Assembly (NCBI GenBank): GCA_905250025.1
Contig: CAJNOJ010000132.1
Coordinates: forward strand, 174,422-238,421
DNA length: 64,000 bases
From: Adineta ricciae
Lineage: Eukaryota; Rotifera; Eurotatoria; Adinetida; Adinetidae
Direction: 5' to 3'
A model generated the notes under the pieces. That model was not told the origin of the DNA. It searched no databases and saw only the letters and a program-made list of their open reading frames with translations. The position numbers were made by a program, and so were the translations under genes. Positions 7,291-44,407 of the stretch are shown here, piece after piece. Every line of letters begins with the position of its first letter. The stretch's first letter is position 1.

Positions 7291-7314
7291 GATTATTCTT
7301 TCGTAACTAGATAA

Positions 7315-18262: not shown

Positions 18263-18515
18263 ATCATTGCCTTCAATTAATCTAATTGTGATACGAACAC
18301 GAAATACATGCCTTATTCTTGTAATTCATGAAAATAAAACTTTTTCTGTAGTTATTAAATTGATAAACCAAAGGAAATATGGATGCTAACATTGGAAAGA
18401 CTAATACTATTACCTACTCATAGCCTTAGATATGATTGTTACTTTTGAGGATGAAGTTACATAGTAGAAATTTATTAAATAAAAAAAACAATCTCTTTTT
18501 CAATCATGACATACG
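18263..18515. other. Short intergenic spacer
   Basis: AT-rich sequence between the aminopeptidase relic and the 3' end of the PARP gene, with no gene. Confidence 0.4.
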
Positions 18516-19422
18516 TTACGCTTTGTAAACGATTTTTAAGTAAGGCAATGCCTGACCATAGCGATACACAATATATTCCGTCATTGTTGAGTGCTTGCCA
18601 ATTATCGAATGGAATCCTAGTGGAGCTGATACCAATGTTTTATCTGTAGTTGTTAAGACCTTAGATTCACCCAAGAGCACCTTGTTATAAAACATGACGC
18701 GAGTGCCATCGGTGGGATTTACATCAGTATAGCCGTGCGATTTTTGTGGATTGTCAGCAAAATAAGCACCATGACCATATAAGCCATCTTTACTAAAATA
18801 TCGATCGTCGTACCCGTCTTCGGTAATACCTTTAGCACCAAAACTTTTCGCACCGTGAAATAATTCTTGTTCATTTGGATTTTGATTTGGACACTGCTTG
18901 GAAGTGAGTTTCTTTATACCTTCGTAGATCTCTTCGAGAAAAGGATTTCGTATCTCTTCTATTGAGATAATTTGAACGGCACTAATGTTTGTCATCTTCG
19001 CTGAAACAGCAATATACAGAGTAGCACTCGTTGGTAGGGGCACTAGAATGGCATAATGTTGATGGTGAGGATTGGGCAAGATTGATATGACAGGTCCATC
19101 TTGAGCCCATCCACGACGTATCATTTTGTCAATACGCTGTTGAACGAATGTATCGGTTGGACGAAGAACTTGAAAACGTTTGTTTCTGATATGTTTAACA
19201 ATCTTTTCTAAATCAATTTCGTAAGGTTTTCGTTGTATGTCGATACGCATTCCAAGTTCATGAGTATAATCTTTCTCTACGGATAGATTACTCACATCTA
19301 AATCAATTCGATCATGTGTCAATGCGACGTGTGGTTCAATCAAATCCATAGTAAATGGTCCTGTTGGTTCATTCAAATCGAATAATAAAACATATCTCCA
19401 AGTGTCACGTTTGACTTCGCAT
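18516..19422 (-). CDS. PARP-domain protein, C-terminal fragment (copy A, cut by N)
   Basis: About 302 residues identical in layout to the C-terminus of the large gene at 33613-40351. They run from the middle of the nucleotidyltransferase-like region (CEVKRDTWRYVLLF) through the PARP catalytic domain with ELFHGAK (His), GHGAYFADNPQKSHGYT (Tyr) and TEYIVY (Glu), the H-Y-E triad of NAD-dependent ADP-ribosyl polymerases or transferases. The reading stops being alignable exactly at the N (19423), corresponding to 34519 in the full gene. On the other side of the N lies NO VEIN-like sequence, so any protein reading across it is artificial. The upstream exons are not in the window for this copy. Confidence 0.88.
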
Positions 19423-21671: not shown

Positions 21672-21672
21672 N
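21672..21672. other. Assembly gap (single N) hiding about 716 nt
   Basis: The left flank matches copy A up to 4697, and the right flank resumes at the base matching 5414. The missing part holds the TM2 start codon and its upstream region. Confidence 0.9.
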
Positions 21673-22107
21673 TCGCTGAAGAAAGAGCGAATAGATAACC
21701 ACATGTCAATAAATAATGTTATTGTTGTTGTATGCTCTATGTACTGACCGGCAAGAAAAAACAGTGCAGCAAGACACGATTTTAATACCGAAAGGAAAAG
21801 AAAATGTTCGTTTCGAAAATGTCCAGACGAGATAGATATCACCAGAGAGAAACAGCTGTGCAATGATATCATTCACATGCGAGATTAGATAAAGAACATG
21901 CTTTAACCATACATTCGTCCATATGTATCACGAATATGTTTCTTTTCGTCTATACAATTCTATTCGATTCGTTCTTGTAATTCCTTCTCTATCTTTCTTC
22001 ACGTCTTGCCTATACAAACAATTCTCTTCGTTATCTTCCTATATAATATCGACTATCGTTTGGTAGTAGTACAGTTTTACTTGTACACAGCTCGCGCAAG
22101 ATCAACG
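21673..22107. other. Upstream region of SLC35A copy B
   Basis: Counterpart of 5414-5847 in copy A, with no gene. Confidence 0.45.
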
Positions 22108-23437: not shown

Positions 23438-23573
23438 TTCCTTTTGTTAACTGTAGGACAATGTTCATAAAGAACATTAGAGCAGTCATTTTTGTGCAAT
23501 TCGAATTAATATTCACTCTTAATTAATATTTTACTCTCTTTCTGTTTAGGATTAATCTTTCGTAACTAGATAA

Positions 23574-24762: not shown

Positions 24763-25082
24763 TTTGCAAATGCGAAAAATTAATTATGTCAGACGAACAT
24801 TTTGCTTCTTGTGCGCAGGTCGTTTGGCTGTTTTTCGTCCTGAAAACACTTTCAATCTTTTTTTTTCATGTACACACCCAGTAAATATTATGAATTAAAA
24901 CGATAATCATGTTTCGAGTATTCGATTTTCACCTGAACCATGTGTTTGGAGAAAAAAAAACAAGAAAAGAATGTTTCTGTTCTTCAGTGCTAAAGTGAAA
25001 GAAAGTGAGAAGAAAAAGAAGTTGATCAATATTTTTCTTGCATCAAACGCTTCACATTTGAAACAGGCGCATTTACAACGAT
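24763..25082. other. Intergenic, no gene seen
   Basis: Counterpart of 8504-8822, an AT-rich spacer. Confidence 0.45.
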
Positions 25083-25397
25083 ATGCCAAAAATGAGGAAT
25101 AATCTAAATAAAATCGACTTTTATAGTAAACAAGTTATACGCAAAGCCAAGAGAACGCACCGGCGACTTTCTCGATCAGTTTATTCAGCAATTCATGGCA
25201 AAGACTTCATCGACGATGTGGACGATACCGATGAATACCAACCTGTATCAATCTTGTCACATATCCCGTATCTGGATCGATACTGTTCGCACTTTTGTAT
25301 GGATTTCTGTGTTGTTCTTTCTGTTATCTTCTTACTAATCATGCTTTTTCTTGTAATAACATACTACTTAGTCTATGGATCTTATTTTTCTATTTAA
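25083..25397 (+). CDS. Small single-pass membrane protein, unknown function (copy B)
   Basis: 104 residues, same start and stop as the copy A protein at 8823-9137. The substitutions are L42F, N48D, N65D and three in the hydrophobic helix. The basic N-terminal half and the helix are both preserved. No family is recognised. Confidence 0.6.
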   Translation: MPKMRNNLNKIDFYSKQVIRKAKRTHRRLSRSVYSAIHGKDFIDDVDDTDEYQPVSILSHIPYLDRYCSHFCMDFCVVLSVIFLLIMLFLVITYYLVYGSYFSI

Positions 25398-25522
25398 TTG
25401 AGATTTTCTACATAAATATGAGTTTCATTTCCGTAGTAAATCGGACCGAGTTTTTATTCTCTAGAAAAAGCTCAACAACGAAAGTACAAGACAACGCCGA
25501 GAATATCTCATTCGCAATTAAA

Positions 25523-26443
25523 TCAAACCAAATCGATGAGCATCACGTTCGCGTCCTGTTGAAATAGGTTCTTTATAGATCGTTTCAGTGGATCTGTAAA
25601 TTGAAATAGAGCAACCATAACGGAGATAGAAAACACATCGAAAAAGACGCAAGCAAATCGGCAATGATATTTGACGGTACGTTGAAAGAACGACATAACA
25701 ACAAACACTCCATACGGGAAGCCAACGATGAAGAGAATTATTATAAGCACAACAATGCGCTGGACGATCGTCAATTGTCGTTCAGCACGAATGATTATAT
25801 TCACCGGGATTATCCGTTTGTTCATTTCACGTATGTAACAGACCAGTTTGAAATAAGTAATTATAATCAACAAAACAGGTATGATATAACTGCAATGTAG
25901 CATGTAAATCAATGAAAACGACAATTTTAATGGTAATTGGCAGACGTGATTATTCACATCATAGGATATTTCCCCTTTGAACATAAAGATCAATGGATAT
26001 GTCAAACTGAAGAGCCATGTGATAGATATAAACAAGAGCTGAGTAGGTAAAGCTCTCCAGGAGTGATGAGATGGATAGACAACGGATATGTAGCGGTAAA
26101 TGGCTTGTAAAAAATACGAGAAGTTTAACATCGCACAGGAGACGTACGCAATATAAATTCGGGCTATGCAAAAGTAATCTTTGTATTGAATGTACTTGAC
26201 ATCATTGTGTAAACGCATCATAGCGATCCAGAACCGGTCGAAACCAAAGATGAAGTGTGATAGACATGAATTGGCAATTAGCATCATAGGAATTGTATGA
26301 CAAGTCTTGTCAAAGAGTATAATTAACATAAATAGCAATGCACATGCAGTGATTAACATTGTGAAGAAAACGGATAAGACATCGAAGGGTATGAACCAGA
26401 ACGGAATATAAAGAATAGTTGTTTCGTTGGTTGAATACATCAT
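25523..26443 (-). CDS. Rhodopsin-like 7TM receptor (copy B)
   Basis: 306 residues, same length as the copy A receptor (9263-10183), with YRYISVVYP after helix 3, VGFPYGVFVV in helix 6 and FTDPLKR at the end of helix 7. Changes are scattered over helices and loops (for example SYRYWRAFP to SHHSWRALP in an intracellular loop). Intact; the ligand is unknown. Confidence 0.85.
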   Translation of the reverse strand: MMYSTNETTILYIPFWFIPFDVLSVFFTMLITACALLFMLIILFDKTCHTIPMMLIANSCLSHFIFGFDRFWIAMMRLHNDVKYIQYKDYFCIARIYIAYVSCAMLNFSYFLQAIYRYISVVYPSHHSWRALPTQLLFISITWLFSLTYPLIFMFKGEISYDVNNHVCQLPLKLSFSLIYMLHCSYIIPVLLIIITYFKLVCYIREMNKRIIPVNIIIRAERQLTIVQRIVVLIIILFIVGFPYGVFVVMSFFQRTVKYHCRFACVFFDVFSISVMVALFQFTDPLKRSIKNLFQQDANVMLIDLV

Positions 26444-28212
26444 CGTATCTAAAAAATATAAAACTGTGAAAGTTCTTCTAGTTGCATTGCGGGGATATTA
26501 GTCTGGTTGAAAGAAGATGTATGAAATTGAAGAAAAGCAATATCTTAGGACATTTGTGAAATCGAAAGTATCAAGTTAGATACAAGCTGAAAGAAATTTT
26601 TAAATTAAGTTTCGAAATTCAGACTCATTGATTATACATCTTCTTGCTTTAATATAGATTAAAATAACTCGAATGAGATATGAAGACTCGTCATATTTCA
26701 TACTTTTAATCAGAGTACCTGATCGCATGAACTATTCTTAGTGAAGAAAAAGAATTCTAAATTAAAATTCCTCTCATGAATATATCCCGACGACGATGAG
26801 AGCGAGTTTCTATCAGTAAAATGCTGATAACAAAAGCAAGTTTTCTCTACTGTATGAGAAAAGTAGAACCTATGAACGTTATTCAGATACTCTCATATGA
26901 AATTTATTCACCTTTCACCCACAGGTACTTCTGTTCGCACACGCAAAGAAAGTTGTTGTCTTCCAAAAAAAAGCCGTCACCCAACGAACATAAAATATCA
27001 TGCAATAGGCCTTAGTCTCATCTTTCTTCGTACTTCGGATGTGCATATATTTATATATGACGATCAATTCGAATGCGACACTTACGTTTTTTTTATCTTT
27101 CGCACAACCCAGTGGAACAGATCATATTTCCTAGTAACACAAATTATCTATCACACAACATTATAATACAATGTGTTTTCTTTCTCATCATTTACACAGC
27201 TGAAAACTTTGTTTTATAAAAAGAAAAGAACATCTCATTGTCACTTGATCTTACTTTAATTAAATCAAATTGTCCGTAAATGTTAGTTTGCTCGTCTACA
27301 TGTCAATGGCGATTCGCGAAGATGATACTAATGACGAGCATCTAGTGTGTCGCTCTTGAGTGCCGAGAAAACGAATGCTCTTGACTTTTCTAAGGAGAAA
27401 AACGCTCATTTCCTATTTGATAAGAAAGTCATGTAGAGGAAGGAAACCACGTCTAAGCACAATATCCGAAGATCAAAAAATTATTCCACTTGTTTTTGAA
27501 AAAAATCATAGCAGAAACGTTCATGACAAATGTCAAGTGGTGCTAAAGCGCTTAGCCAGGCGTCGGATCAGCGTGTAATCTGGATTTTTGGGAAAGAGAC
27601 ATCTCTAGCTGTCGAACATGATATTCTGCTTCTTTAAATTTAATACAGACAACATCATCTGAGTTTTAAATAGACGAGGAATCTAAATGTTCATTCGATG
27701 ATATGCTTTACAGTTAAATTTTCCGGTCAAGAGAAACATTTGTACTGTGCATTATTATTCATTGTAATAATAGACTTCCCTTACTGTTTAATATATTTAT
27801 AAAGAGCACTTTCGAACTTTAATATTTGATTCGCATTCATTTCTATAAAAAATGAAGTAAATGATTCAAGACATCTTTTATGTAGGCTTAACTGGCTTTG
27901 TTGTAACGAAGGAGTGTCACGTGAATTTAGCGAAGTTAATTCAGAGATGAAATAAGTCATTATGAATTTTGATATCAAACTGATTGTGTCGTGAGAAGAG
28001 ATATAAGATGAAACAAACATGGCTACTGCGTGCTGTATCGTTTCTCTTGCGACACAAGGACAGACACGTGTGTTCCGAGGCGAAAACAATCATCATGTTT
28101 GTTCTGATGTTTTTCTTTCTTTTCTTCGCACTAACAATTGTCTTTGGAAATGAAGTTTATACTGAATATTTATTTTTAAAAACTGTTTTCTCGGCATGTG
28201 ATACTTCTATTT
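26444..28212. other. Long AT-rich intergenic region
   Basis: Counterpart of 10184-11977, with small insertions and deletions and no consistent reading frame between the copies. No gene is called. Confidence 0.5.
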
Positions 28213-29136
28213 TTACATATCACTCCGTGTTGTTGTGAGTGTGCCCGTTGCTTTTCCTTTGGTGCTTGTGACAAAATTCCACAATTCGTTGGCATGCATC
28301 TCGAACATTTTCAAAAGGAGCGACTGTGACCAGACGACAATGGTTCGATCACCTTTGAGTGTATTTAGTCTTTAACACGACTTCACTTACTGTGCACGGT
28401 ATGCATGAAACCGCTTGCTCATCCATTAATTTTTGTGCACAATCTATTTCGTTCTCAATTGTTCCGTCGAATTGATCAGGATTAATACGTATCTAGTCGA
28501 ATAAATATTAATTGAAAGAATAGACGAGTTCACTTTTTGCTCACGAGCATGTAGAGAGCACCTTGTGATTTATGAGGTTCGATAGTAGGCTGTGCTTGTG
28601 ATAAGATATCAAACATTAATTCCGCATTTTTCTATTCAGCCAGAAATTCGATTATAAATTATAGATTGTAACTGAATATTTACTTGAACATATGCCATGT
28701 AATCTTTGAAATAGATTTTCGGAGCCTCATTGAGAATGCGAGGCAGAGAAGCTTGAATGATCGAGTTTGGTCCAAGTAGTCGCACACCCTCAATCAAATA
28801 AACAAGGTCGAACCGAATCTAGGTATGCAAATGAAGATAAAATATCGCAAGTCAATACAAAGATAAGATGTTAACTAAATAAATAATTCATTGGATCATG
28901 AATAGCAATCCATCCACATCGCCAACCAGGACAACAGAATAATTTGGAAATCCCACCACGTGTCAACATGGGTACTCGTTCGGATAAAGTTGCTGTCGGG
29001 TGGAATTTCACATCTTCGAATGTCTGTGAATATATAATCGTAAATGGATGGTGTTCGTTTTCTGGTGACTCACCATTCCTGCGTACATTTAGTCTGAGAT
29101 GATTGACAAATGGTATTCTTCTCACACAGCGATCAA
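28213..29136 (-). pseudogene. Tyrosine aminotransferase remnant (copy B)
   Basis: Only the C-terminal exons remain, from the DEIYAGM region to the stop. The 5' half is gone, replaced by the G/T-rich tract at 29137-29170. What remains is also damaged: a TAA directly after the SD of the DEIY block (near 29092-29096), and an inserted base that shifts the frame after CLFD (near 28787), among others. The lesions differ from those of copy A, so the gene was lost independently, or continued to decay separately, in each copy. Confidence 0.8.
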
Positions 29137-29170
29137 GGGTGTGTGGTGTGAGGGCGTGTGAGGGTGAGGG
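29137..29170 (+). repeat. G/T-rich telomere-like tract at a deletion junction
   Basis: 34 nt made of only G and T plus a few A and one C, containing TGTGAGGG twice (29147-29154 and 29157-29164) and further GGGTGAGGG. It stands in place of 1169 nt of copy A (12929-14097). It resembles the G-rich TGTGGG telomere repeats described for bdelloids, but the match is imperfect. Confidence 0.5.
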
Positions 29171-29827
29171 TGATATGTAGATAGAATAAAATATTAAAAA
29201 GTAATCAGACGAAAATCAGCAGACTAAGGCTTTTTTTAATGTTTATATAAATTGATCGAAAAAGCGAGCACATTTTCGAGGAAACATCTTGTAGATATTA
29301 AGATCGAATTGTGATCTAAATTTGAAGTATATCGGAAGAGAAATAATGACGTGAAAGAATTGATTCTTTAATGTGAGTATTTAGGTTTGTTTTTTCTTTC
29401 TGGATAAGAAATAAAATCACCGTTCAAAATAGACAGTATTCTGATTATCTGAAATCATCGTGTTGATAAGGAACTGTACATTCGAATGAATGAATATCAT
29501 AGTCAATAATACCAAATTATAGTTCTTGTCAAATTGATTTAATATCAATGAGTTCAATTTCCCCCATTTGCTGTTTATTTCGGTGGTTCAAAGCGAAAAA
29601 TCTGATAACCTTCTGGGTACAATGCGAAGCAGATATCTTTTTATGATCTACCTCGCCGTGGTGAAAGAAATGCTTTTGGTTCTCTTATTCAACGATCGAT
29701 TTATGGACGATCATAAAACTATTGAGTTTTTTTTTTATATTCTTATTGTGTATAGAACAGAGTCATTTGTTTCTAACAACATCAGAAAACAACAAAGTAC
29801 ACTCTCAGTATCTTCGTGAACGTTAAC
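29171..29827. other. Upstream region of P450 copy B
   Basis: Counterpart of 14098-14758, AT-rich, with no gene. It probably holds the P450 promoter. Confidence 0.45.
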
Positions 29828-31363
29828 ATGGCACTTCTCACGGTGTTATACGTTCTACTTGGTTCAATTTCTTTTATTATCTTCTATATTTACTGGAAAT
29901 ATATATATTCTAAGAAATGTCTTTATCTTATGTTTCGTAATCAAGGTATACCATGTGAACCATTTGTTCCGTTTGTCGGACAACTATCTGATATACGCCG
30001 TGCGAGCGTTAATGATAATGCCATGGACTATCGACTCGCATTAGCGAAAAAACACGGTTACGTCTACGTTTCGGGATTCGGCCCATCGATACATTTGAAT
30101 GTAATGGAACCGGACATGCTTGCTGATGTTTTTGGTCGGTCGCATGCACGAGATTATAATAAACCGGAAGATACCGTGACAGTTTTTGAGCCTCTTATTG
30201 GTAAGCACAATCTACTGACGAGTGAAGGAGAGGAACATGATCGTGCACGAAAAATGCTAAATCCTGCGTTTAGCTTCATCAAATTACAATCCATGATTCC
30301 TATCATAGTCGATCAGACAAGTAGAGCTATCGATGATTTACTCTCATCGGCAAAACAAGGTCAAGTGGTCGATTTACAAACAGAATTTACTAATCTCACT
30401 CTAGCAATTATTTCCTCAAGTGCGTTTGGTAAAAGTCTAGAAACCACGAAGAATGCAAAACAAATTGTCAGTCACGCTTTCAATGATCTACTGGCAGCGA
30501 TAGCTTATCGAACTATGCGAGCAATTAACGTGATGCCAATTATTTGTCGATTACCGTTTTGGCGTAAAAACATCGTCGATAAAGGCTCACGCGAGATTTT
30601 TCAGTTTGTCGATCAAATAATTGCTGACCGTCGATTTCATCGGTCAACTAGCTTGTCTACCAACGAAGATCTTCTCGATCTCCTTCTCACAGCAGTCGAT
30701 AACGAAGGAGAGTTTTTCAGTAATGAAGAAATTAAAGATCAAGCGTTAGCATTTGTATTTGCTGGACATGAGACAACAGGCCATTTGATAACTTGGATTG
30801 TGTACATATTAATGACACACAATGATGTACTACAAGTTTGTCGCGAAGAAATCGATCGAGTACTTCCAAATGGGACGTCACCTGACGCCGAACGTATGAG
30901 TAAATTGGTCGTATGCGAAGCGATCATACAAGAAACACTTCGTTTGTATCCACCAGCACCATTCATGATACGAAAATGTATACGTGAACACATCATCGGT
31001 AGTAAAGAACATCGGCAAATACGAGTTCCTGTTGGTGCAACCATTCTACTTAATAGTTATGTTCTCCATCGACGCGAAGAGTATTGGCCAAGACCGGAAG
31101 AATTTGATTATACACGTTGGATTCGAGATCCGATAACAGGCTTCAAACCTAAACTAACTCATCCATTCTGTTATTTACCATTCGCTGCTGGACCACGAAA
31201 TTGTATTGGTCAGAACTTCGCTCTACTCGAAGCGAAGATCATGTTGGCGGCACTTGTCCAACGATGCCAGTTCGAGCTAGAGCCCGGCCAAAAGATTATC
31301 CCAGAAACTTGCGTCACTATGTCACCAAAGTATGGACTACGAGCAAAGATTGCTCAGCGATAA
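29828..31363 (+). CDS. Cytochrome P450 (copy B)
   Basis: 511 residues, intronless, same start context as copy A. The N-terminal anchor helix, FAGHETTGHLI, ETLRLYP and the heme loop PFAAGPRNCIGQNF are all identical to copy A. About 15 substitutions lie elsewhere (for example Q to R in SHARDYN, F to Y in REEYWP). Expected to be an active ER-bound monooxygenase of unknown substrate. Confidence 0.95.
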   Translation: MALLTVLYVLLGSISFIIFYIYWKYIYSKKCLYLMFRNQGIPCEPFVPFVGQLSDIRRASVNDNAMDYRLALAKKHGYVYVSGFGPSIHLNVMEPDMLADVFGRSHARDYNKPEDTVTVFEPLIGKHNLLTSEGEEHDRARKMLNPAFSFIKLQSMIPIIVDQTSRAIDDLLSSAKQGQVVDLQTEFTNLTLAIISSSAFGKSLETTKNAKQIVSHAFNDLLAAIAYRTMRAINVMPIICRLPFWRKNIVDKGSREIFQFVDQIIADRRFHRSTSLSTNEDLLDLLLTAVDNEGEFFSNEEIKDQALAFVFAGHETTGHLITWIVYILMTHNDVLQVCREEIDRVLPNGTSPDAERMSKLVVCEAIIQETLRLYPPAPFMIRKCIREHIIGSKEHRQIRVPVGATILLNSYVLHRREEYWPRPEEFDYTRWIRDPITGFKPKLTHPFCYLPFAAGPRNCIGQNFALLEAKIMLAALVQRCQFELEPGQKIIPETCVTMSPKYGLRAKIAQR

Positions 31364-31792
31364 TAAAACAATATTGATATATCAGTGTCTTTTCTTTACC
31401 AATGCTTACATCCTTCACTCGAAAATTAAAAGATAGACAAACAAAAATTTCGTCAACATGTGATTGACATGATTGTGATGCTTTTCTTTGTTTCAAAATA
31501 AACTAAATTAATACAACTAACAAATAGTAATAACATGATTGTTTTCTTGTTGCACGTTTGTGAGAGATGTTTGTAAAAGGACATATCGTTCTGTATACCA
31601 GTTGAGTTAAAACAGGTCAAAAACGATAATTTAATTTCGAACCAGATATATGGGACTCTTTCTAATATTTGAGCATAGACATCAACACCTAACTTTCTTC
31701 ATTGAATATTCGTCTTGGTTTCTACGTCGTATTGCTGACCACGGTAATGATAAAATATAAAATGAATATTTATAGTTTCTTAAAGTAGGAAG
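31364..31792. other. Intergenic, no gene seen
   Basis: Counterpart of 16295-16724, with no gene. Confidence 0.45.
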
Positions 31793-33358
31793 ATGGATCG
31801 TTCGAATAAACTACGTGCACTCATGGAAGATCATGACTATAATTTGTGTTAGCATTGGTCACTCGAAACTATGACGCTGCCTTTCAAGTTCCAACTAACT
31901 ATCGCCTACTCCGCAAAAACAGAATTCAACGAAAATTATTGGCTGACAGTTGATGATATTGTTGCCTGATTGGGTAAACTTGATACAGAGATGATGAACA
32001 TTGATTATGATCTTCGTTTAACTCACTTATTCATGATCAAAACAGTTGAAGAATTATCTACTATTCAGTATATCGTGTGCAATCACTCTGATTGTCAATC
32101 TACCTGATTGAGACGATATCGAATAATGAAACAACGGTTCAACGATCGATATTAACACCTATTTGGTCACTCTATGGAATTCGCTTTGCCGGAGAGACAA
32201 GCAGTCTAAAATTGCACGACCACTATTTAGATTCCAACGAAAAAGAATATGCATTTGTGACAGCAGCGCCGGATCAAGTCACTTGGCTATTGAATCTTCG
32301 TGCAAATAATATGCAATGCTATCTCTTATTCAATAGTTTTATGATCGTTTTACCTGATGAATTTATCGTCTTCCCGACAATCCGTATGAGGCAAAGGATT
32401 CGGACAGGTGAGTTCACGTGTTGTGTGTTCGTCATCGATACTCTACATTCTTCGTCCATATACATTTCGCATTCACCAATTCAATAAATGAAAGAAATCA
32501 AGAATTCCACTGAGTTAGACGGTTTCCTTCAATGTCATTATCGAGACTGCGCAGCAGTATGTGAAACATTTCAGTAACTTCAGTAATCCATTGATAATAA
32601 TTCGCTTATAACTGAATATGACGTAGTCAAGTATCTCGAACAACGTCAGTGAGAAAAAGAGTCCTTCATTGAAATTGCTTTCGATACGATATCAGCCTGT
32701 GGAGCGAATACACCGGCTCGTTGAATATGCACTGTCAGGTAACAAAGATGCGAAAACTATTAGGCAAGATTTATACTGCCTTGATAGTAGCACTAATTAC
32801 TAAGATGGAACGACAGATATGACACGTACATTTCACTTTGGACAAACTTCATAAAGACAAATAGAATGTTACATACTATTATTACGTGGCGTATTAGCTA
32901 TATAGATATGACCGCATTTCCGAGCAAAGATTTTATTATAGGATACGGAATAGGTGCTCTTTTGCCACAGTATCTCAATGCTTATCATTACACAAGTAAT
33001 CGTATGCTCTTTGGTCATGGAGTATCACACGGTCAATGTGTTATCAAACGTGGAGTTGTAATTTCTGATAGCTCTAAAGTAGCCAGTCGAATACTTATTC
33101 GACTAGGAATGATTATCACACTTGAACCAGATATCTATGTCGATATGGTGAATAGGATATTTGAATAAAAAATCTCTATGTAGTCGAAGATGATCAGATG
33201 GAATGGATGCGTTTTGTTTCATTAACGTTAATACCCTATTCTTGTAAAATGATTGACCTCAACTTGCTTTCGAAAAAAGGAAGGAATTAAAATGGATTCA
33301 TGATTATCATCAGTTATGTCTGACGAAAGTCAATGGTGGACAGTGGATAGTGAATGAA
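31793..33358 (+). pseudogene. Aminopeptidase P (M24B), decayed (copy B)
   Basis: Same relic as copy A: the start MDRSNKLRALMEDHDYN followed by an early TAG, the DGTTDMTRTFHFG metal-site block preceded by a TAA that copy A lacks, FIIGYGIGALLPQYL, SHGQCVIK, IRLGMIITLEPDIYV and the MIDLN tail. It also carries a TGA in the VDDIVA segment. Some positions are closer to the ancestral enzyme than copy A and others further from it, so both copies are drifting. Confidence 0.8.
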
Positions 33359-33612
33359 ATCAATGCCTTCAACTAATACAATTGTGATACGAACACGAAA
33401 TACGTAGATGCATTATTCTTGTAATTCATGAAAACTAAACTTTTTCTGTAGTTATTACATTGATAAAATAAAGGAGATATGGATGCTAGCATTAGAAAGA
33501 TTAATACCATTACCTACTCATAGCCGTATATACGATTGTTACTTTTGAGGATGAAGTTACATAGTAGAAATTTATTAAATTAAGAAAATCTCGTTCTCGC
33601 CTATGACGTTTG

Positions 33613-36600
33613 TTAAGCTTTGTAAACGATTTTTAAGTAAGGCAATGCCTGACCATAGCGATATACAATATATTCAGTCATTGTTGAGTGCTTGCCAATT
33701 ATTGAATGGAATCCTAGTGGAGCTGATACCAATGTTTTATCTGTAGCTGTTAAGACCTTAGATTCACCCAAGAGCACCTTGTTATAAAACATGACGCGAG
33801 TGCCATCGTTAGGATTCGCATCAGTATAGCCGTGAGATTTTTGTGGATTGTCAGCAAAATAAGCACCATGACCGTATAAGCCATCTTTACTAAAATATCG
33901 ATCGTCATACCCGTCTTCGGTAATGCCTTTAGCACCAAGACTTTTCGCGCCGTGGAACAGTTCTTGTTCATTTGGATTTTGATTTGGACACTGCTTGGAA
34001 GTGAGTTTCTTTATACCTTCGTAGATCTCTTCGAGAAAAGGATTTCGTATCTCTTCTATTGAGATAATTTGAACTGCGCTAATGCTTGCCATCTTCGCTG
34101 AAACATCAATATACAGAGTAGCACTCGTTGGTAGGGGCACTAGAATGGCATAATGTTGATGGTGAGGATTGGGCAAGATTGACATAACAGGTCCATCTTG
34201 AGTCCATCCACGACGTATCATTTTGTCGATACGCTGTTGAACGTATGTATCGATTGGACGAAGAACTTGAAAACGTTTGCTTTTGATATGTTTAACAATC
34301 TTTTCTAAATCTATTTCGTAAGGTTTTCGTTGTATGTCGATACGCATTCCAAGTTCATGAGTATAATCTTTCTCTACGGATAGATTACTCACATCTAAAT
34401 CAATTCGATCATGTGTCAATGCGACGTGTGGTTCAATCAAATCCATAGTAAATGGTCCTGTTGGTTCATTCAAATCGAATAATAAAACATATCTCCAAGT
34501 GTCACGTTTGACTTCGCATGTAATTCCGTATCGATACAATTCATCTTGGAATTTCTCTATGTCGAAATATATATGCGAAGGTAGATGACAGTCCAGATCA
34601 CCCGGAACGACTTCTTTTATCAAAGCGGGCATAGGATTGTTCGTGTCGATCCATTTCTTCGGATCCGTTATAGCAGTTGGCTTGCTCGCATTCCCATCAA
34701 CGATCCAATCGCGAACAAAACCACCTTCTAGTTTGCAGTCAAATCTGCAAACTGCAATCCATGCCACGGCCTCCATTCGTGTTTCGCGCGTCGCTTTCTT
34801 ACCTCGAACAGCTTTGAACAAATCGACTGGCGTTCGTTTTGAGTCAGTGACACGACTGATTCTTTCCTCCATCTCCCGAGTTTCCTTTTCTCTGCGCATT
34901 GCAGGATGAAGTACGCGTGGACTGACAACTAAAAATGTTTGACTAAAGCGAGTAGGCAAATGGTAATTCTTAACTTACAATCATTTGGATGCCGTATAAC
35001 AGCACATCCTCTTAGCCAGCTGAGAAATGCTTGAAACTCCTTCTTTACCTTCTGATTATCTGAGTCTCTGCCTTTGATGACAATATCACACGTTTTCGCT
35101 GTTGTATTACTGTTTATAGTGATTTCTACTTGTCTTTCTGCAGCCCATCGCCACTTCATCGGATTGAAGATGTTAATTCTTTTCATAACACTTAATAGAT
35201 TCAAGGAGAAGTTCGAATCATCGGTCATGTTCGCTGTGCCCACTAAATTGAAGGTCAACTCGGAAATCATCTGCTGGCGAAGATGGAGTTCAGCATCGAG
35301 AACAACACCTGATGGTCCTTTGAATTTCATTCGTTGGCTACCTAATGCCATGTTAATTCGATGAGAGAATTTTGTCTGAGCACCGGAATATCGATTTCCA
35401 CTATTCAAATATGTTTCTTCGTCATTAGTCAACTCGAACTCTCGCTCGAGTGGATAGTCGAGCCATTCTGCTTTGATTTCACCAACGAATGAAATAATTC
35501 CCGTTGCTCGGACAGTCGTCGAATGACGAATATCTCGAGCTAGAACGAGCGAAACTGGTGCTATGCTAATCGGCCGTGTTAATGTTGATTGTAAATCTAA
35601 TTTAACAACATCAGTTGGCTTATTGTAGCGAATGTATAGATGGGAGCGATCTTGTAATTCTTTCATGGAAACGAAAACGTTATCGTAGTAACCAGTCAAT
35701 AAGGATTTAGCAATTAATTCCCAGTCTCCGGACTGAGTTTGAGCCGATGCACAGAAGCTCGGCGATTGATTGAACGCTTTTTCCAATGTTTGATAACGTC
35801 TCAGGGCTTGACGGATGATATGTTGAATTTCTCGTAAACCTTCTGCTTGACAAACTTGATCAAGGTTGAATTGATTCGCTGGTGTACTTTGTTTAATTAG
35901 AAGAATTCTGTTCATGACGTGCAATAAAGTCATAAAATCTCCATCCGAACTTTTCAGATGTTGTGGTAAACGTTTCAGTAGAGCTGTCGTGTTCAAAACC
36001 CCTAAAATAGCTGACAAACAGATTAGATCCCGTCCACATCCATATTGACCGAGAGCTGCCAACACCGCTTTGGACATTGCCAATGAACCAAAATCAGGCA
36101 ATTTCGCTAGCTCCTCACCATGTTTCGTCAATTTATCGTTAGAACCTTTCTCCAAAATATCTAAACATATCGAATACAACAATCATACAGAGAACTGAAG
36201 TTCATTGAACATTGCTTACTCAAATCTTTTAACTGTGTAATGGTTATATCAATTGTTTTCTGTTCCGGTTTATCCGGCAGATATGTTTTCATATGGTTGA
36301 AGCCAGCTTTCAATGGAGACTTTCTCAAGGAAAACTCGATGCTCATCAGATCCGATTGGCAGATTTGAGGTACCGGATATGGAACGGCATCGGGCTTGAA
36401 ATTGTACAATGAATAGTACTCACCGGGTTGTGTTCGGCCGAGACGACCCAATCGCTGTTTTATTGTTGAATGAGCAGCTGGAATTTCTTTTAGAACAGTC
36501 CGTTTCGATTGAAAATCATACATGGGAATGTTGATCATTCCTGTATCAACGACGTATTTCAGGCAAGGAAAGGTCAGCGATGTTTCTGCTATGGTGGTAG

Positions 36601-39600
36601 AGAAGAACACAGTGCCGTGTTCAATGTAATCTTGTTGAACGTTAGGATGTTGTGATTGGATCAATGGGTACGCGACAATTGTTTCTCGGCTAATTTCATT
36701 GATTTGTTTACATGATTGAGTGACTTCTCCAACGGAACTAACGAAGCAAAGAATTTGCTCATGACGTTTTCGTTTTTTACACAATTCTTGAATGATATCA
36801 ATAGGACTTTCGTTGGGTCGTGCAATTTCCGTGACTTTGTATAATGTTCCCATTTGTGGCATTTGGAATTCGGCAAGACCAATTTTACTAAATAATCTCG
36901 GCACTGAAGCATCGAGTGTCGCAGATGAAACAACTACTTTTATTTTGGTTTTCAGTTCAGGTTGAGTCGTTAATGTTCGAGCTAGTAGAGCCAAACAAAG
37001 ATCAATATTAACCGACCGTTCATGAACTTCATCGATAAAGAAAACGACTGATTTGTTGAGTTTCGTTTGTGTAGAGATCAGATTCGAATCGTAGAGCAGT
37101 CGTTCTTTCAGTAGACCGTCGGTCAAGTAAACGATAGCTGCATCAGGATGTCTTTCAGTACCACTGACGGCCCAGCCAGCTATTGGATTCTTCAGTGATT
37201 CCGAATCGTCGCCCATTGTTTGATTTACTCGTTTACAAATTAACTGGCATGGCAAACGTCGTGGTTGAGTGACGATAACTCTATCATAACCTTCGGCGAT
37301 CAAAAGAGCTGGTAATAATGTCGACTTTCCTGATCCAGTCGATGTTGAAATAGTAACGACTGGACTCTTTTCGATTTTATCCAATAGGTCTTTAGACGAT
37401 TCGTACAGTGGCAATTGAACTTTGAAACAACCATAGTAAAGAGTGAGTCGTTGAAGAAGTTTAGGAATGAGCGCGAAATGCTTCAGTTCATAACCTTGGT
37501 ACAATTTGAGTGTTTGAAATTCTTTTTGTACTTTGTCGATAAACTCTTGAAGAACAGCAACAGATTTCGCCGACGGCTTCGTGACGAGTTTCGCACGTTG
37601 AACTAAGATATTTTCTTTGATAAATTGTTCCAATGCTGCATGTTTCAGAAGTTCTATTTCATTCATCAATGGCTGTTTCTGAAGAAACTGCTCCGTTGCT
37701 TTGCGAAGATCCTCCCAAGGCTTCGGTAGTTTGTCGGCAATGCATTGATCGATCAATGCGTTCGCTTGTTCATCAAGAAAGACTTCAAATTTCTTCTCAT
37801 ATTCCGTCTTCTTCGTCTCCAATAGTTCGCTGAAGGTTGCAACATATTGCTTCCAACTATGTGTTTGTGGTTTAACACGAAATACCGCTTCTTTCATCAA
37901 TTGACTAGTATCTCGGCGGATGTACCGTTGATAATATTTTTTCGCCGACTGAATAACATTCATCAACGACCAGATTCGTTGTAAAAGGTCTTTGAATCCT
38001 TGCTGATGAGCAGAAAACCCAATGACAGTAACAACATATTGACTACCCTCTGTAGAGAACACGATTTTCGGTACGCGATCATCGAAAGATGGATCGATGT
38101 TTTTCAATAAACTTCGTAAATGAAGAATGATGATCGAATGTTTTGGTGCCAAGTACCGGTGGATGACTTCAACTTGAATGCTTTTGTAATCCGAGGTTTT
38201 GATGTTTTTATCCATTGCTTTCAATTTTTGTTTTTGTTGTTCATATTCTTTTTGGTTTTCTTCCATCTTCGTGATTCGATTTAACAATCGTTCGATTTCC
38301 TGCTCATGTTGGCTGCCTGAATCTAATAAGGCTTGTATCCGTTGTCTTTCGTTGGCTAAATCATTGTTCAATTTTTCGTTACTCTTCTCTAGCTCTCTCA
38401 ATTGTTCGTTGATTTGTGCTGATTGTTTATCGTTATTCGATGAACCAGAAACAATGCTCTCCTCGAAATTATTCTGTTGCGGTAAGCGTACAGTTGCAGC
38501 TGCTTCATTGATGAAATCTTCCATTCGTTTTGCACCGAAATCTTCGGAGGTGTCGGATTTGCTTTCTATGTCCCCAGTAAGATCTTTCACAGACCAAACT
38601 TGATTGATAGGAGTCTTAGGCATCTAAAAAACATGAAATTGGTGACGATGTAAACACATCATAATGCAAATCTTTACTTCATTGATGGTTCTATGCACAC
38701 TATCATCATCTTCAGCATCACTTTCTTCGGTATCCGAATCATAATCTTCGTCATTTCTGAACATGCCATCATCATCATCGTTAACAGTGGACATACGATC
38801 AGCACTGCTTTCGACTTGTCTCAATCGTGCTGTGGTTAATGGTATCGGATCTAAATGTGCCAATGCTTGAAAATCATCGATACCGATAATTTTGTTCTTA
38901 TTGCGCGGATTGTTTGAAATCATCTTCGGAATCCAGCGAATATAGCCAGCGATACTTCCGCTTCCATTAGCAAACGAAAATGTTTGTAAATCAAATACGA
39001 GTTCGTCCTGGCATACACGAGGAAGCTCGAGACGAAGATACTTGCGACGATATTTCATGGTATGATCTAACTGAGTGTCGGTTTTAGCGTCACAGAAATA
39101 CCACGAATGAAGACGAACTTTGAAATTGCTATCATATACCGTTGGTATGGTCAACATTGTTAAGGATGGCTCAGTTTCGGCCTTTGGATATTTCGTGAAC
39201 ATAATTTGCCAGAGACAGTAGCAATTGAAATTTACGATGGACGAGCCTCTGCAACGAACCCAAGCGATTCTTTGGGTGAAACTAGCATCCTTGCCCGATC
39301 GTAGGAATTGAATTAACGAAACTGCATAAGTTCCAGCGCGCACTCGTAAATGAATTTCATGTTTAAACTCGTTGTCCTCTTTGAATATCATGGATCCCTG
39401 AAGAGTGGTTGCCTCGGCTTCCGAAAACGGATACCATTGCTCATTGGTAAAGGGTTTATATTCCCAAAAACAATCGACGAGAGTATCTTCATCTTCCGTC
39501 GAAATCTGTAGATGTGGTAGATCATCGGTTTTGATCGAATAGCTGGGAACAAGGTTGTCTTTAAAATATTTAATAATACTGGGATGTTGTCGGGCATTAT

Positions 39601-40351
39601 CAATGGGTGTTTCATCAGCATGATTTCGGAGAAAACAATCAGCACCGTGTTCAAAGAGGAATTCGACTATCTTCAAGTGATCACCAAAACAAGCGCCGTG
39701 TAACGCCGTTGAGCCAGCAGATGGATTTCGAGCAAAGTCCGGATCATCTTCGATTGCTCTGTCTAAGGCTCGCTTGATATGTTGTTGGTTTTGAGCATTG
39801 ACGGAGCATCGAGCTTTGATCAAAAGAAATCGGACCAGATTGAAATGATTGTTTCGAGCTGCTGAGTATAGGATCGTAGTACCCCACAGACCAGGACTAT
39901 CTTTCATTGTGGGATATTTCTTTAGAAAATCTTTTACATCGCCTTCGTCGCCAGTGAAAGCTGCTTGGAAAGCTTTGAGTGAAGCTAACATCTGTTGTGC
40001 ATCATTCGCAAAAGCTTTCAGCATGCCAGTATTGAAAGGATTTGTGAACTCGCGAGTCTCTTGATTGTAATTGTACTGATGTAAAAAATTCAATAAATAT
40101 TTACGAGATAGTGTCAACAACTTGGGTATGTTTTTTGATAGCACTTCTTCAAGTTGATATTTCATATCGTCCATCAAAGCGTTGACCTGAGGATCCAACG
40201 TAAATGTATAGATATTAATGTCTAACGTGCCATCCGTAGTGAAATGCCCTGATTGGTTTTGGTTCGTTAGTTTTCTCATAGTATCTTCAATAACTTTAAC
40301 TATCGCTTCCAAACAACGTCGTAGTCGTCCTTCATCTTCTGTATTCGCCAT
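33613..40351 (-). CDS. Ankyrin - DEAH helicase - nucleotidyltransferase-like - PARP fusion protein
   Basis: Four exons (38678-40351, 36220-38623, 34979-36160, 33613-34928) with introns of 50-59 nt join in frame to 2191 residues. Order: helical N-terminus; ankyrin repeats (about 155-265, STALHGACFGDHLKIVEFL); a WWE-like block (about 295-380, WYPFSEAEA); an acidic patch; coiled coil (about 630-700); DEAH-type helicase with TGSGKST (about 985), DEVH (about 1087), SAT (about 1126) and QRLGRLGR (about 1284), then helicase C-terminal region; a nucleotidyltransferase-like GGFVRDW (about 1820) with PGDLDCHLP (about 1862); and a PARP domain with ELFHGAK (His, about 2077), GHGAYFADNP (Tyr) and TEYIVY (Glu, about 2171). 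Each motif is as expected for an active domain. Helicases of this kind unwind RNA, and PARPs with RIQNP-like starts modify proteins or nucleic acid. An RNA-sensing or antiviral role is inference only. Confidence 0.88.
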
Positions 40352-40719: not shown

Positions 40720-41904
40720 TTAATACTTGAGTTCTTGTTGGACTAAACTGATCCAATAAGCTACACCATATGGAATAACTTCATCGTTAAAATCATATGT
40801 GGGTGAATGTAAATTTCGAAATCTGGTATCATCGTTCACACCCAAAAATATAAAAGCGCCAGGTCGTTCGACGAGCATGAAAGCAAAATCTTCACCAGCC
40901 ATCGTCGGCTCTGTGTTTCGATCGACATTTTCTTCGCCAACTACGGCTTCAGCCGCTGTAATAGCTCGTTTGGTTTGTTCTGCGTGATTCACCAGGGGGG
41001 ATGCAACTCGAACGTATTCTACTTCAGCTTCACAACCAAAATCAGCTGCGAGATTACTAGCAATTTCCTTCATGCGTCGTTCAATTGTACTACGCACGGA
41101 TTCTGTTAAACTTCGAGTCGTGCCACCAATACGTAATGTTGATGGCATGACATTTAACGATTGAAATGAACCACATTCAATGGCACCTACGGTTATCACC
41201 GCTGAATCGGTTGCCTTAATGTTTCGACTGATAATGGTTTGTACTGCTAAAACAAATTGTGCTTGCAAAACGGTAAGATCACTGGCTCGATGTACGAGTG
41301 CACCTCCGTGACCACCTGTACCACGGAAAGTGACGAGCCAACTGTCACCTGCTGCCATCATCGGACCAGCACGTATTGCAAATTTCCCGAATCGTTCTGG
41401 ATAGTTGTGTAGTCCGTAGACGGCATCCATGGGAAATCGATCGAATAGACCGTCCTTGATCATTGCTAAAGCACCAGTAAGCCCCTCTTCAGCCGGTTGA
41501 AATATAAAATAAATAGTTCCACAAAACGTATCACGATGGTGAGCGAGATATTTCGCTGCACCAAGCAACATAGCTGTGTGTCCATCATGACCGCAGGCAT
41601 GCATCGTGCCCGATATTTTGGATCTGTAAGGAACATCATTTTGTTCGTTCAGACGAAGAGCATCCATATCAGCGCGCAGACCAATTGTATTATTGCCTGG
41701 CTGTAAACTTTTCAAGATCCCAACAACACCAAATTGACCAACACCTTCAATCGCCATTATACCCCATCCTTTCAATTTATTGGCAACTAACGCGGATGTT
41801 CGTACTTCTTCCATGGCCATTTCAGGGTGAGCATGAATATCCCGTCGAATTTGTTTTAGTTCTAAGTGCATCTCGCGCACTTGTTCAAGAAGTACAGTAT
41901 TCAT
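40720..41904 (-). CDS. M20D amidohydrolase (hippurate / N-acyl-amino-acid hydrolase type)
   Basis: Intronless 394-residue metallopeptidase-family enzyme that cleaves the amide of N-acyl amino acids such as hippurate. Motifs: LRADMDAL, MHACGHDGHTAMLLGAA (Cys and His metal ligands), FQPAEEG (catalytic and metal Glu), HNYP (His ligand), GTGGHGG in the dimerisation lid domain, and TMAGEDFAFM with NLHSPTYDFND (last His ligand) at the end. Length and every motif fit bacterial HipO-type proteins, with no signal peptide, so it should be cytosolic. The lack of introns in a gene-dense region where most neighbours have them, plus the bacterial character, makes horizontal origin likely; the plant IAA-amino acid hydrolase branch is the alternative source. 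Confidence 0.93.
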   Translation of the reverse strand: MNTVLLEQVREMHLELKQIRRDIHAHPEMAMEEVRTSALVANKLKGWGIMAIEGVGQFGVVGILKSLQPGNNTIGLRADMDALRLNEQNDVPYRSKISGTMHACGHDGHTAMLLGAAKYLAHHRDTFCGTIYFIFQPAEEGLTGALAMIKDGLFDRFPMDAVYGLHNYPERFGKFAIRAGPMMAAGDSWLVTFRGTGGHGGALVHRASDLTVLQAQFVLAVQTIISRNIKATDSAVITVGAIECGSFQSLNVMPSTLRIGGTTRSLTESVRSTIERRMKEIASNLAADFGCEAEVEYVRVASPLVNHAEQTKRAITAAEAVVGEENVDRNTEPTMAGEDFAFMLVERPGAFIFLGVNDDTRFRNLHSPTYDFNDEVIPYGVAYWISLVQQELKY

Positions 41905-42379: not shown

Positions 42380-42967
42380 ATGTCGTTCGAAAAAATGACT
42401 ACAAATCCATTTGTTGTTCGTCGTGCCACTAGCAGTGATAGTGATGCAATCGCTCAACTTAGTCGACAGACATGGCGTGAAACGTATCTGGAAGATTTGG
42501 CTCTACCTATTCCTGATCATGATGTTGAATCTTATTTGCGCACTGAGAAAAGTTCACAGTGGTATGCAAATAAAATTGCGGATCCACAGGAAGCGACTTG
42601 GGTGATGGAAGATACAACGACCGGAGAGATCGTTGCCTTTCTCATCGTCGGCCGATGTGAAGTGCCTCATCCAGAATTTTCTCGAAATAGGGATGGGCAA
42701 ATCGAGTATTTATATGTCCGACGTGATCGACAATCACAAGGATTTGGAAAACAATTAATGAATATCGCTTTGTCATGGCTGGAAGAGCAATTTCCCGAAC
42801 GGCCTGTGTGGCTGACAACATTAGCTTGCAATCTGAAGTCACAAAAGATGTACATGAATTACGGGTTTACTACAGTCGGTGAATTTATTTCAAAGGTTGG
42901 AAATACAGAAAGACATTTCATCGTTATGCGACGAGAGAGTCGCTCCGCTATTCAAAATCTTTGTTAA
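42380..42967 (+). CDS. GNAT-family N-acetyltransferase
   Basis: Intronless 195-residue protein. Acetyl-CoA binding motif A is RQSQGFGKQLM (R/QxxGxG/A) after the beta strand GQIEYLYVRRD, and motif B is NLKSQKMYMNYGFTTVGEF, as in stand-alone GNAT enzymes of bacterial style. The N-terminus FVVRRATSSDSDAIAQLSRQTWRETY is the typical first helix pair. The acceptor is unknown. The last 78 nt overlap the 3' end of the convergent ADP-ribosyltransferase gene. It could start at the second ATG (42395). Compact size and lack of introns fit possible acquisition from bacteria. Confidence 0.88.
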   Translation: MSFEKMTTNPFVVRRATSSDSDAIAQLSRQTWRETYLEDLALPIPDHDVESYLRTEKSSQWYANKIADPQEATWVMEDTTTGEIVAFLIVGRCEVPHPEFSRNRDGQIEYLYVRRDRQSQGFGKQLMNIALSWLEEQFPERPVWLTTLACNLKSQKMYMNYGFTTVGEFISKVGNTERHFIVMRRESRSAIQNLC

Positions 42968-44212
42968 ACATTTTTGCTGTAAATGAATAACTGTTCTCTC
43001 TTCTTCTTGTTCAATCTGTGTAATAACAAACGATGAATATGGTAGAAGCAATACTTCAGCTTCACTTTGAAATTCTGATATACCAGATATATCAATCGCC
43101 GTAGATTGATCGTTATTGATTATTTCATAAATACAGAAATAGGACTGTTTATTTGGATCAGTGGTTCCTTTGTCCGAAAACATCTCTGCCACATAGCGAT
43201 TCGCCGAAGTTGAGAGAAATGTAGTTGTCATAATACAAGAGCCAACTTTGTAATGATCAAGAACGTTTCTTGGTAGGACAATACCGCGATACGATCTTCC
43301 AACGAAACTACGCTTTTGATATCTTTCGTAACGAAGAAGGATGCTTATGATTGCTCGTGTACCATCTTCTGTTGAATAGAGACAGTCGCATGAGAACTGA
43401 CTACAACCATTTTTCAAATCATGTATGATATTACGTGCCATATCTTCATTTAACAATTTGGAAAACTTCTGAGAAATTGTATATGCAGCGATGATGTAAT
43501 CAGGATCTTGTTTACGTAACGCACATTGTAGATAATTATGTACTTTTGTCATATTTTCCGAAAGAATATCATGCAAACGTGTATTGATATAGCCTTTTTC
43601 TATCGTATGAAGTTTTCGCTTTAGATCCTTTTCGTCCATGGGTGTCAATGATTTCAATTCATGACGAAATCTCAAGGATTTTTCTGCTGCGTCTTGATCG
43701 ATTAGTTCCCATTCATACAAAGTAGTATCATCGACTAATGAACAAACTTTACATTTTACTTTCCATTGATCTTCAGAAACGGTGCTACCGGGTTCGAGTG
43801 CAAAGACGAAGCGATTTGATGATGGACGTTGGAACAAATCTTTAATTTCCTTTGTTCCAGCTAATTCATAAGCTTGCTGACTGTCTATATTGCTTAGCGA
43901 TCGTCTAGCGCCGTGAAATAAGAGCATTTGAATAATTTCTTTATGTTGATTTCTAGTAGCAACATGTAAAGCCGTGTCGTTATTTGGTAGATGCTGATAA
44001 TTGATTTCTTCATATTCCACCGTTTCCAAGCATGATTTTACACGAGCAACATCGTTCATCAGACAAGCTAAATAAAGCAATGGAGGTTTAGACGGCAGTG
44101 GGCGGAAATATTGCTGAAAGAATCGAGATAATCGACAATACTCTTGCCTCTCATCGTTGGAATTTGACAAGCCCGTAGTCGAGTGTGTCATATGTCGTGT
44201 AAAAAAGTACAT
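42890..44212 (-). CDS. Ankyrin-repeat arginine-type ADP-ribosyltransferase
   Basis: Intronless, 440 residues from ATG 44212 (ATG 44191 also possible). Residues about 45-125 hold two or three ankyrin repeats (NNDTALHVATRNQHKEIIQMLLFHGA). After a linker comes an R-S-E class mono-ADP-ribosyltransferase domain: SYRGI (Arg, binds NAD), FLSTSANRYVAEMF (STS) and SEAEVLLLP (ExE, the Glu pair giving arginine specificity). Such enzymes transfer ADP-ribose from NAD to arginine. No signal peptide or GPI signal is seen, so unlike vertebrate ecto-ARTs it should be intracellular. All catalytic residues are present. The C-terminus overlaps the GNAT gene tail to tail. Confidence 0.87.
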   Translation of the reverse strand: MYFFTRHMTHSTTGLSNSNDERQEYCRLSRFFQQYFRPLPSKPPLLYLACLMNDVARVKSCLETVEYEEINYQHLPNNDTALHVATRNQHKEIIQMLLFHGARRSLSNIDSQQAYELAGTKEIKDLFQRPSSNRFVFALEPGSTVSEDQWKVKCKVCSLVDDTTLYEWELIDQDAAEKSLRFRHELKSLTPMDEKDLKRKLHTIEKGYINTRLHDILSENMTKVHNYLQCALRKQDPDYIIAAYTISQKFSKLLNEDMARNIIHDLKNGCSQFSCDCLYSTEDGTRAIISILLRYERYQKRSFVGRSYRGIVLPRNVLDHYKVGSCIMTTTFLSTSANRYVAEMFSDKGTTDPNKQSYFCIYEIINNDQSTAIDISGISEFQSEAEVLLLPYSSFVITQIEQEEERTVIHLQQKCLTKILNSGATLSSHNDEMSFCISNL

Positions 44213-44407
44213 ATGAATGACAAGTCAGACATGATTTCCGCTGTTTCTCCACCATTGAGTCAACTAATTGGTAACGAAGATAAAAATAGTCATTTTTCAT
44301 ACAGGTAAACGAGTTTGGAATGAGTAATAAAACATGTTGGAAAGTATCTCTGATTGAAATTTCCATGAGAAAGTAAATTTGAAGAACATTTCTTGTTTCG
44401 CACAGTA

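Follow-up and report, generated by a model that had tools for sequence, protein, structure and literature searches.

A bdelloid rotifer gene family joining a DEAH/RHA helicase, a probable nucleotidyltransferase and a PARP domain in a single chain

Introduction

Could one animal protein open RNA, add nucleotides to its 3' end and ADP-ribosylate the product? The question is raised by a gene in the rotifer Adineta ricciae (GCA_905250025.1, contig CAJNOJ010000132.1), located in a 64,000-nucleotide (nt) stretch (contig positions 174,422 to 238,421, forward strand) that is called the window here and whose positions are used below. From the letters alone, an initial annotation had read helicase, nucleotidyltransferase-like and PARP domains in one four-exon gene, after ankyrin and WWE-like parts. 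The gene is intact and belongs to a conserved family in which helicase, GGxVRD domain and PARP domain follow each other in one chain; the GGxVRD domain is probably a nucleotidyltransferase of the poly(A)-polymerase/CCA type, and a role in handling RNA ends is possible.

Gene model and domain layout

The gene runs from 40351 to 33613 on the minus strand as four exons whose in-frame join gives 2191 residues and a stop, with three introns of 54, 59 and 50 nt, each GT...AG. From N to C terminus it encodes ankyrin repeats, a weak WWE-like part, a coiled coil, a DEAH/RHA helicase, a part without family match, a domain with GGxVRD and DxD motifs, and a PARP domain with the H-Y-E residues. The genome searched was the 130.5-Mb assembly (1033 contigs), in which the window lies on contig C132 and paralogs are labelled by contig (C36, C455 and so on). 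The features of the gene, with residues in amino acids (aa) and "models" meaning the eight gene models described below, are:

38678..40351, minus strand, exon 1 (aa 1-558): ankyrin repeats, WWE-like part and acidic tail (gene model, Pfam)
39629..39967, minus strand, ankyrin repeats, aa 129-241 (Pfam Ank_2, E 1e-15)
39245..39484, minus strand, WWE-like part, about aa 290-369 (below-cut-off WWE match of paralog C36 and alignment; no Pfam call in the target)
38624..38677, minus strand, intron 1, 54 nt, GT-AG (gene model)
36220..38623, minus strand, exon 2 (aa 559-1359): coiled coil, part without family match and DEAH/RHA helicase core (gene model, Pfam, PDB, NCBIfam)
36161..36219, minus strand, intron 2, 59 nt, GT-AG (gene model)
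34979..36160, minus strand, exon 3 (aa 1360-1753): PDFGSLAMSKAVL stretch, HA2-like by eye, and conserved part without family match (gene model)
34929..34978, minus strand, intron 3, 50 nt, GT-AG (gene model)
33613..34928, minus strand, exon 4 (aa 1754-2191): nucleotidyltransferase-like domain and PARP domain (gene model, Pfam PARP)
34192..34926, minus strand, nucleotidyltransferase-like domain, about aa 1755-1999 (invariant motifs, profile comparison)
34708..34725, minus strand, GGFVRD, aa 1822-1827 (kept in 8/8 models, with I for V in C36)
34591..34599, minus strand, DLD (DxD), aa 1864-1866 (kept in 8/8 models)
34441..34443, minus strand, D1916 in TMDLIEP (1914-1920), candidate third acidic residue by our own assignment (kept in 8/8 models)
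34381..34410, minus strand, DRIDLDVSNL, matched to the RRDFT-N motif of PolyA_pol when a long alignment is forced
33640..34080, minus strand, PARP catalytic domain, aa 2037-2183, with H2079, Y2110 and E2172 (Pfam PARP; tankyrase-1, E 5.8e-13)

In exon 2, Pfam calls DEAD (E 2.9e-6) and Helicase_C (E 6e-7), and helicase motifs I, II (DExH), III and VI are present as TGSGKS (987-992), DEVH (1089-1092), SSATL (1124-1128) and QRLGRLGR (1281-1288), respectively. The closest solved helicase in PDB is HrpA (E 2.5e-31), then a splicing-factor helicase, DHX8 and Prp22, and the nearest NCBIfam models are HrpB (E 6.4e-37) and HrpA. The PARP match in exon 4 (E 3.8e-16) scores 59.6 bits against a curated cut-off of 26.7; its closest solved relatives are tankyrase-1 and -2, then PARP14 and PARP12, with PARP1 chains matching at E 0.007 or worse only. 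H2079, Y2110 and E2172 are kept in 8/8 models; this part is read as an H-Y-E ADP-ribosyltransferase, and NAD+-dependent ADP-ribosylation is predicted.

The gene model, Pfam and the motif positions confirm the four exons in one frame and the helicase, GGxVRD and PARP motifs that had been read by eye. A Pfam hidden Markov model search, which the initial annotation had proposed for the joined protein, returned Ank, DEAD, Helicase_C and PARP, and did not call WWE, HA2 or PolyA_pol. The best WWE match in the family is that of C36 (E 0.009, 16.8 bits vs a cut-off of 21.1), and several W and E positions of the WWE-like part are common to the target, C36 and C455a in the alignment. Exon 3 has no Pfam match, HA2 included, and no PDB match by profile; the PDFGSLAMSKAVL stretch within it looks HA2-like by eye.

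A conserved family with a fixed domain order

When the genome was searched with exons 4 and 2, relatives came up at C36, C209 and C608 and, as two copies each, at C455 and C700; identity is 46-66% in their main pieces and 30-34% in weaker N-terminal pieces. Further fragments lie at C94 (two, masked upstream), C590, C773, C1031 and C186. Eight gene models were compared, namely the target and seven homology-guided models at five other loci, built with the target as guide and with approximate splice choices; the set omits C132b, which meets a single-N join at about aa 1428. All eight models, each of which reaches that far (target, C36, C455a, C455b, C209, C608, C700a and C700b), have the order helicase, GGxVRD domain, PARP. 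Counting copies read for the 3' part only, the PARP part directly follows the GGxVRD domain in all 13 unbroken copies (target, window copy, C36, C455 x2, C209 x2, C700 x2, C608, C94 x2 and C590); C773, whose pieces are short and in some cases carry stops, and C1031, which starts 297 bases from a contig end and has stops, lie outside this count. Ankyrin repeats are also called by Pfam in C36 and C455a, and the C700 pieces have no good match before target residue 931.

Every model keeps helicase motifs I, II, III and VI, GGF[VI]RD, DLDCH, TMDLIEP, RID and the three PARP residues H, Y and E; the changes seen among the motifs, GGFIRD in C36 and QRQGRLGR in C700a/b, are conservative. The most conserved 30-residue block of the whole protein contains GGFVRD (mean 0.91; best helicase block 0.88). 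Compared with its 93-95% copy, the target has a ratio of nonsynonymous to synonymous substitution rates (dN/dS) of 0.18 in the exon 4 part, 0.24 in exon 2 and 0.21 in the exon 1 part. For the GGxVRD domain the ratio is 0.12 vs C36 and 0.10 vs one C209 copy, both near saturation, and the C455 and C700 pairs give 0.14 and 0.27, respectively. Against this stand a value of 0.5 between the two C209 copies, which differ by few changes, and saturation that left dN/dS not computable in 5/7 comparisons with other loci. Taken together the ratios indicate that the family is under purifying selection.

Alignment A1 (10 rows) omits the broken pieces of C773 and C1031 as well as C608 and C590, whose raw matches carry in-frame TAGs that are probably intronic; alignment A3 (8 rows) additionally omits C94a/b, masked upstream. 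In the C209 model, the 2178 residues read include a stop at 2171, past the PARP E and beside an N join, and the second 3' copy at C209 has none; the C608 model has a poor junction on its N-terminal side (score 0).

Might two or more adjacent genes have been wrongly joined, or the chain be an assembly artefact? The contig itself carries single-N joins and tandem near-copies, which would favour such an error. There is, however, no N inside 33613-40351, the window's only two Ns lying at 19423 and 21672, and the domain order is repeated at five further loci. In C700a/b a single exon covers target residues 931-2106 and so spans two target intron sites, from the helicase into the PARP domain, which excludes the wrong joining of neighbouring genes. 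Misassembly or misjoining, extremely improbable in our estimate, is rejected on the evidence of the C700 exon, the N-free gene and the order in the other models. The conserved order and the C700 exon support the reading of one chain made by the initial annotation, which had understated the case in seeing a single gene: the helicase-GGxVRD-PARP chain is a conserved gene family rather than an accident of prediction.

Near-copies on the contig

Between 2451-19422 and 19424-34519, three blocks on each side correspond at 92-94%, and a further near-copy pairs C132:242.4-246.5 kb with 40115-35986 at 95%. These near-copies look like alleles laid end to end, and the second gene copy is therefore split, its 5' part lying beyond the window and its 3' part being:

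18516..19421, minus strand, 3' part of the second gene copy (aa about 1891-2191), about 93% identical, truncated by the single-N assembly join at 19423

The second copy has no stop in the parts compared with the target. Because allele-like near-copies stand in tandem, joined by single Ns (19423, 21672), copy counts in the assembly possibly overstate gene numbers.

Directly upstream of the gene, 40720-41904 (minus strand) encodes a single-exon M20 peptidase (160 bits) that looks bacterial by eye. A few kb upstream, 42893-44224 (minus strand) encodes ankyrin repeats and an NAD:arginine ADP-ribosyltransferase (Pfam ART, 25.8 bits), another ankyrin-ADP-ribosyltransferase pairing near the main gene.

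The GGxVRD domain as a probable nucleotidyltransferase

Shuffling the protein 200,000 times produced the motif triple GGx[VIL]RD ... DxD ... hDh in 16 cases; judged by this test, the triple is not due to chance. GGxVRD, DxD and the third acidic residue (our candidate) are kept in 8/8 models. The domain was compared with a PolyA_pol profile made from 26 bacterial sequences of 30 fetched loci (the other four lacked the motif expression) plus sequences from C491 and C253. With residues 78-105 of the 265-residue target piece, a 28-residue variable insert between GGFVRD and DLD, and both ends removed, the family profile scored 34.3 (P 8.8e-5), and the standard alignment covered 54 columns, starting ahead of GGxVRD and continuing beyond DxD, and placed DLD on the DxD of PolyA_pol. 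This score was reached by 0/100 full shuffles and by 0/100 shuffles of the part after GGFVRD, one of which came to 31.5; with C491 and C253 left out, such a shuffle came to 33.5 vs 35.4 for the family profile. The unaltered profile (21.9) also exceeded all 60 column shuffles (best 19.9).

Several results weigh against a nucleotidyltransferase. The match of the unaltered profile is weak (P 0.022, 26-27 columns, aligned at GGxVRD only), and the insert was removed post hoc, the cut being chosen once the motifs were known. RIDLDVSNL falls on RRDFTVNAL in a forced long alignment only (probability 60%, 133 columns), and our estimate is kept down for this reason. Pfam PolyA_pol is unlisted at E<=5 in 10/10 family members, a negative qualified by HMMER filters that discard most matches above E of about 0.1. 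The domain matches neither the nucleotidyltransferase of a second PARP fusion, C491 (P 0.25), nor the C491 and C253 pair. Comparison by hhalign with single Escherichia coli Cca and PcnB sequences fell short of significance (P 0.066 in register, P 0.017 out of register; unrelated control 0.48), and a PDB profile search with the domain gave a chance match only. The initial annotation had pointed to an AlphaFold model as a check of the fold; a single-sequence model of the domain has a predicted local distance difference test (pLDDT) score of 34 and is unusable.

The Pfam family DUF5769 matches weakly at 34258-34416 (aa 1925-1977), around and after RID, in 8/10 members (best E 0.00074), short of its cut-off (target 18.2 bits vs 26.1); a genome search with DUF5769 gave no match anywhere, controls included. 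Giant-virus relatives of DUF5769 were sought with a DNA pattern for IDFDVNN, and none of the 28 viral-contig stretches found has an in-frame GG..RD-like motif upstream. The PADLOC model PDC-S15 matches weakly (E 0.0014) in a region overlapping the DUF5769 stretch near the RID motif; this lead was dropped, as PDC-S15 had no match in the genome at E<=1 (the control E. coli matched), and two further Escherichia genomes also lacked it at E<=0.001.

The C491 fusion came from a genome search with Pfam PolyA_pol, in which C491:42235-42627 matched beside strong CCA-type matches. It lies in a 702-residue open frame (C491:41887-43995, minus strand) with a U-box (57.1 bits), a PARP12-like part (E 3.2e-6 vs PARP12 when sequences are compared) and PolyA_pol (29.3 bits, cut-off 23). 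That Pfam calls no PARP in this intact frame counts against the RNA-end reading proposed below; a 94% copy at C491:53.0-54.7 kb, its frame broken near the GG motif, has a six-frame Pfam PARP match of 29 bits. A PARP domain and a PolyA_pol-type domain are joined in two backbones, in opposite order, in one genome, and we take this as the best sign that both activities work together.

Would the GGxVRD domain instead be a dead enzyme, or a binding fold unrelated to nucleotidyltransferases, leaving the helicase and PARP alone active? The uncalled Pfam PolyA_pol, the profile match that requires post hoc excision, the want of a confident structure model and of a match to the C491 domain would fit such a domain. 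Against it, all 8 models preserve GG, RD, the two D of DxD, the third D and RID, the GGFVRD block is the protein's most conserved 30 residues, and another PARP fusion carries a Pfam-called PolyA_pol. We regard a dead or unrelated domain as unlikely and a poly(A)-polymerase/CCA-type nucleotidyltransferase as probable, a reading that the invariant motifs and the motif-register profile alignment favour.

Other combinations in the genome

C432:48874-54699 holds a 1942-residue open stretch with a DEAH helicase and IBR (24.6 bits, cut-off 24.3) and, below cut-off, a CCCH finger, HA2 and PARP (24.0, cut-off 26.7). At C312 a helicase and a PARP-like end share one frame, and at C427 a PARP match lies some kb downstream; for C147 and C55 the analysis covered the helicase side. 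These form a second helicase-PARP family made up of C432, C312 and perhaps C427, C147 and C55. A PolyA_pol-like protein at C253:87097-88494 (minus strand; 23.6 bits, cut-off 23) has by eye an apparent signal peptide and a C-terminal membrane segment, and a second copy lies at C253:93.6 kb.

Searches outside the genome

Viral contigs yielded no relatives of exon 4, the GGxVRD-domain alignment or the C491 nucleotidyltransferase part in a search with few peptide patterns, able to detect fairly close relatives only, and bacterial and archaeal contigs yielded none by the GGxVRD-domain alignment. The best tblastn match in phages and plasmids had E 1, and PHROGs gave weak matches only (best E 0.018, in exon 4). 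The initial annotation knew of no protein with this order, and the architecture is not described in the portions consulted of the literature searched, all open-licence papers (including PMC12220480, PMC3482391, PMC10809525, PMC6264785 and PMC9503650). Because the search was confined to such papers, this is weak evidence of novelty; the domains are of known kinds in a combination that is new and undescribed as far as searched.

Proposed function

Helicases of this class and GGxVRD enzymes both point to RNA, the latter being known as 3'-end polymerases that act on RNA. The leading reading, though a tentative one, is an RNA-end-handling, ADP-ribosylating enzyme for marking or repairing broken or foreign RNA in stress or defence; the RNA-sensing, RNA-tagging and defence roles are suggested by the domain types. 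From knowledge of the families, the ankyrin and WWE-like parts would bind partners or ADP-ribose, and the DEAH/RHA core would load on RNA and move 3' to 5'. The GGxVRD domain would then add, template-independently, at least one nucleotide to the 3' end that the helicase delivers or exposes, and the PARP domain would transfer NAD+-derived ADP-ribose onto the RNA end, the protein itself or bound proteins. The likely task would be recognition of broken or foreign RNA, followed by its marking or repair, in stress such as desiccation or infection, with desiccation, radiation or infection as possible triggers.

Two considerations tell against RNA as the substrate: DNA or hybrids could also serve the helicase as substrates, and published bdelloid PARP induction was interpreted as DNA repair in the part of PMC10809525 consulted. 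The gene might belong to a DNA-damage or desiccation response, its helicase and nucleotidyltransferase working on DNA ends and its PARP playing the part known from base-excision or end-joining repair. Radiation raises 17 PARP genes in Adineta vaga and rehydration 9 (PMC10809525, same part), and bdelloids have a diverse set of DNA repair genes in multiple copies according to the portion seen of PMC6264785, both of which would suit such a role. Yet the closest solved helicases are DEAH/RHA RNA helicases (HrpA, DHX8, Prp22), and the PARP part lies nearest to tankyrase and PARP14/12, PARP1 matching no better than E 0.007. GGxVRD enzymes, moreover, are known to act on RNA, and a DNA-repair role appears rather unlikely.

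It is more improbable still that the nucleotidyltransferase makes a small signal by joining nucleotides to each other or to ADP-ribose instead of to an RNA end. NAD+-using and nucleotide-making domains often occur together in immune systems, and three enzyme types in one chain could channel such a product; on the other side, GGxVRD-type enzymes are known as 3'-end polymerases and the present data give no sign of a small product.

For the RNA-end enzyme, a bolder reading that we consider doubtful is a new animal enzyme class in which RNA opening, 3' nucleotide addition and ADP-ribosylation of RNA or bound proteins would make one chain a self-contained marker of RNA damage or foreign RNA, the PARP-nucleotidyltransferase pairing having been assembled twice (with a helicase and with a U-box ubiquitin-ligase module). 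Enzymes for RNA ADP-ribosylation are known, and few of its biological roles are settled. If true, the fusion of PARP, RNA helicase and probable 3'-end nucleotidyltransferase would connect ADP-ribosylation and the handling of RNA ends directly, a link that a single recombinant protein would make testable, and the family would offer a candidate mechanism for bdelloid tolerance of RNA damage or foreign RNA.

Comparison with known systems

The protein shares ankyrin repeats and a C-terminal H-Y-E PARP with tankyrase (ankyrin-SAM-PARP), tankyrase-1 being the best solved relative of its PARP part; it differs in having a helicase and in that no SAM domain is among its Pfam matches, and tankyrase, to our knowledge, has neither helicase nor nucleotidyltransferase. 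PARP10/12/14/15 and ZAP (WWE or CCCH plus PARP) have a related PARP domain, with the weak WWE-like part upstream in the target as a further likeness; we know of none with a DEAH helicase and a nucleotidyltransferase in the chain. With the DEAH/RHA RNA helicases HrpA, HrpB, Prp22 and DHX8 it has in common the core with motifs I, II, III and VI, whereas the tails in that family are OB-fold and others and are not known to include a PARP. Like poly(A) polymerase I and CCA-adding enzymes it has GGxVRD and DxD in register and, in the forced alignment, an RRDFT-like motif further on; unlike them it has no Pfam PolyA_pol match and a spacing of 36 residues from GGFVRD to DLD, which is short in the bacterial sequences. 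The C491 protein differs in carrying a U-box in place of ankyrin repeats and helicase, in having its PARP before the nucleotidyltransferase, and in that the two nucleotidyltransferase parts have no direct match; it is alike in joining a PARP domain and a PolyA_pol-type nucleotidyltransferase in one chain.

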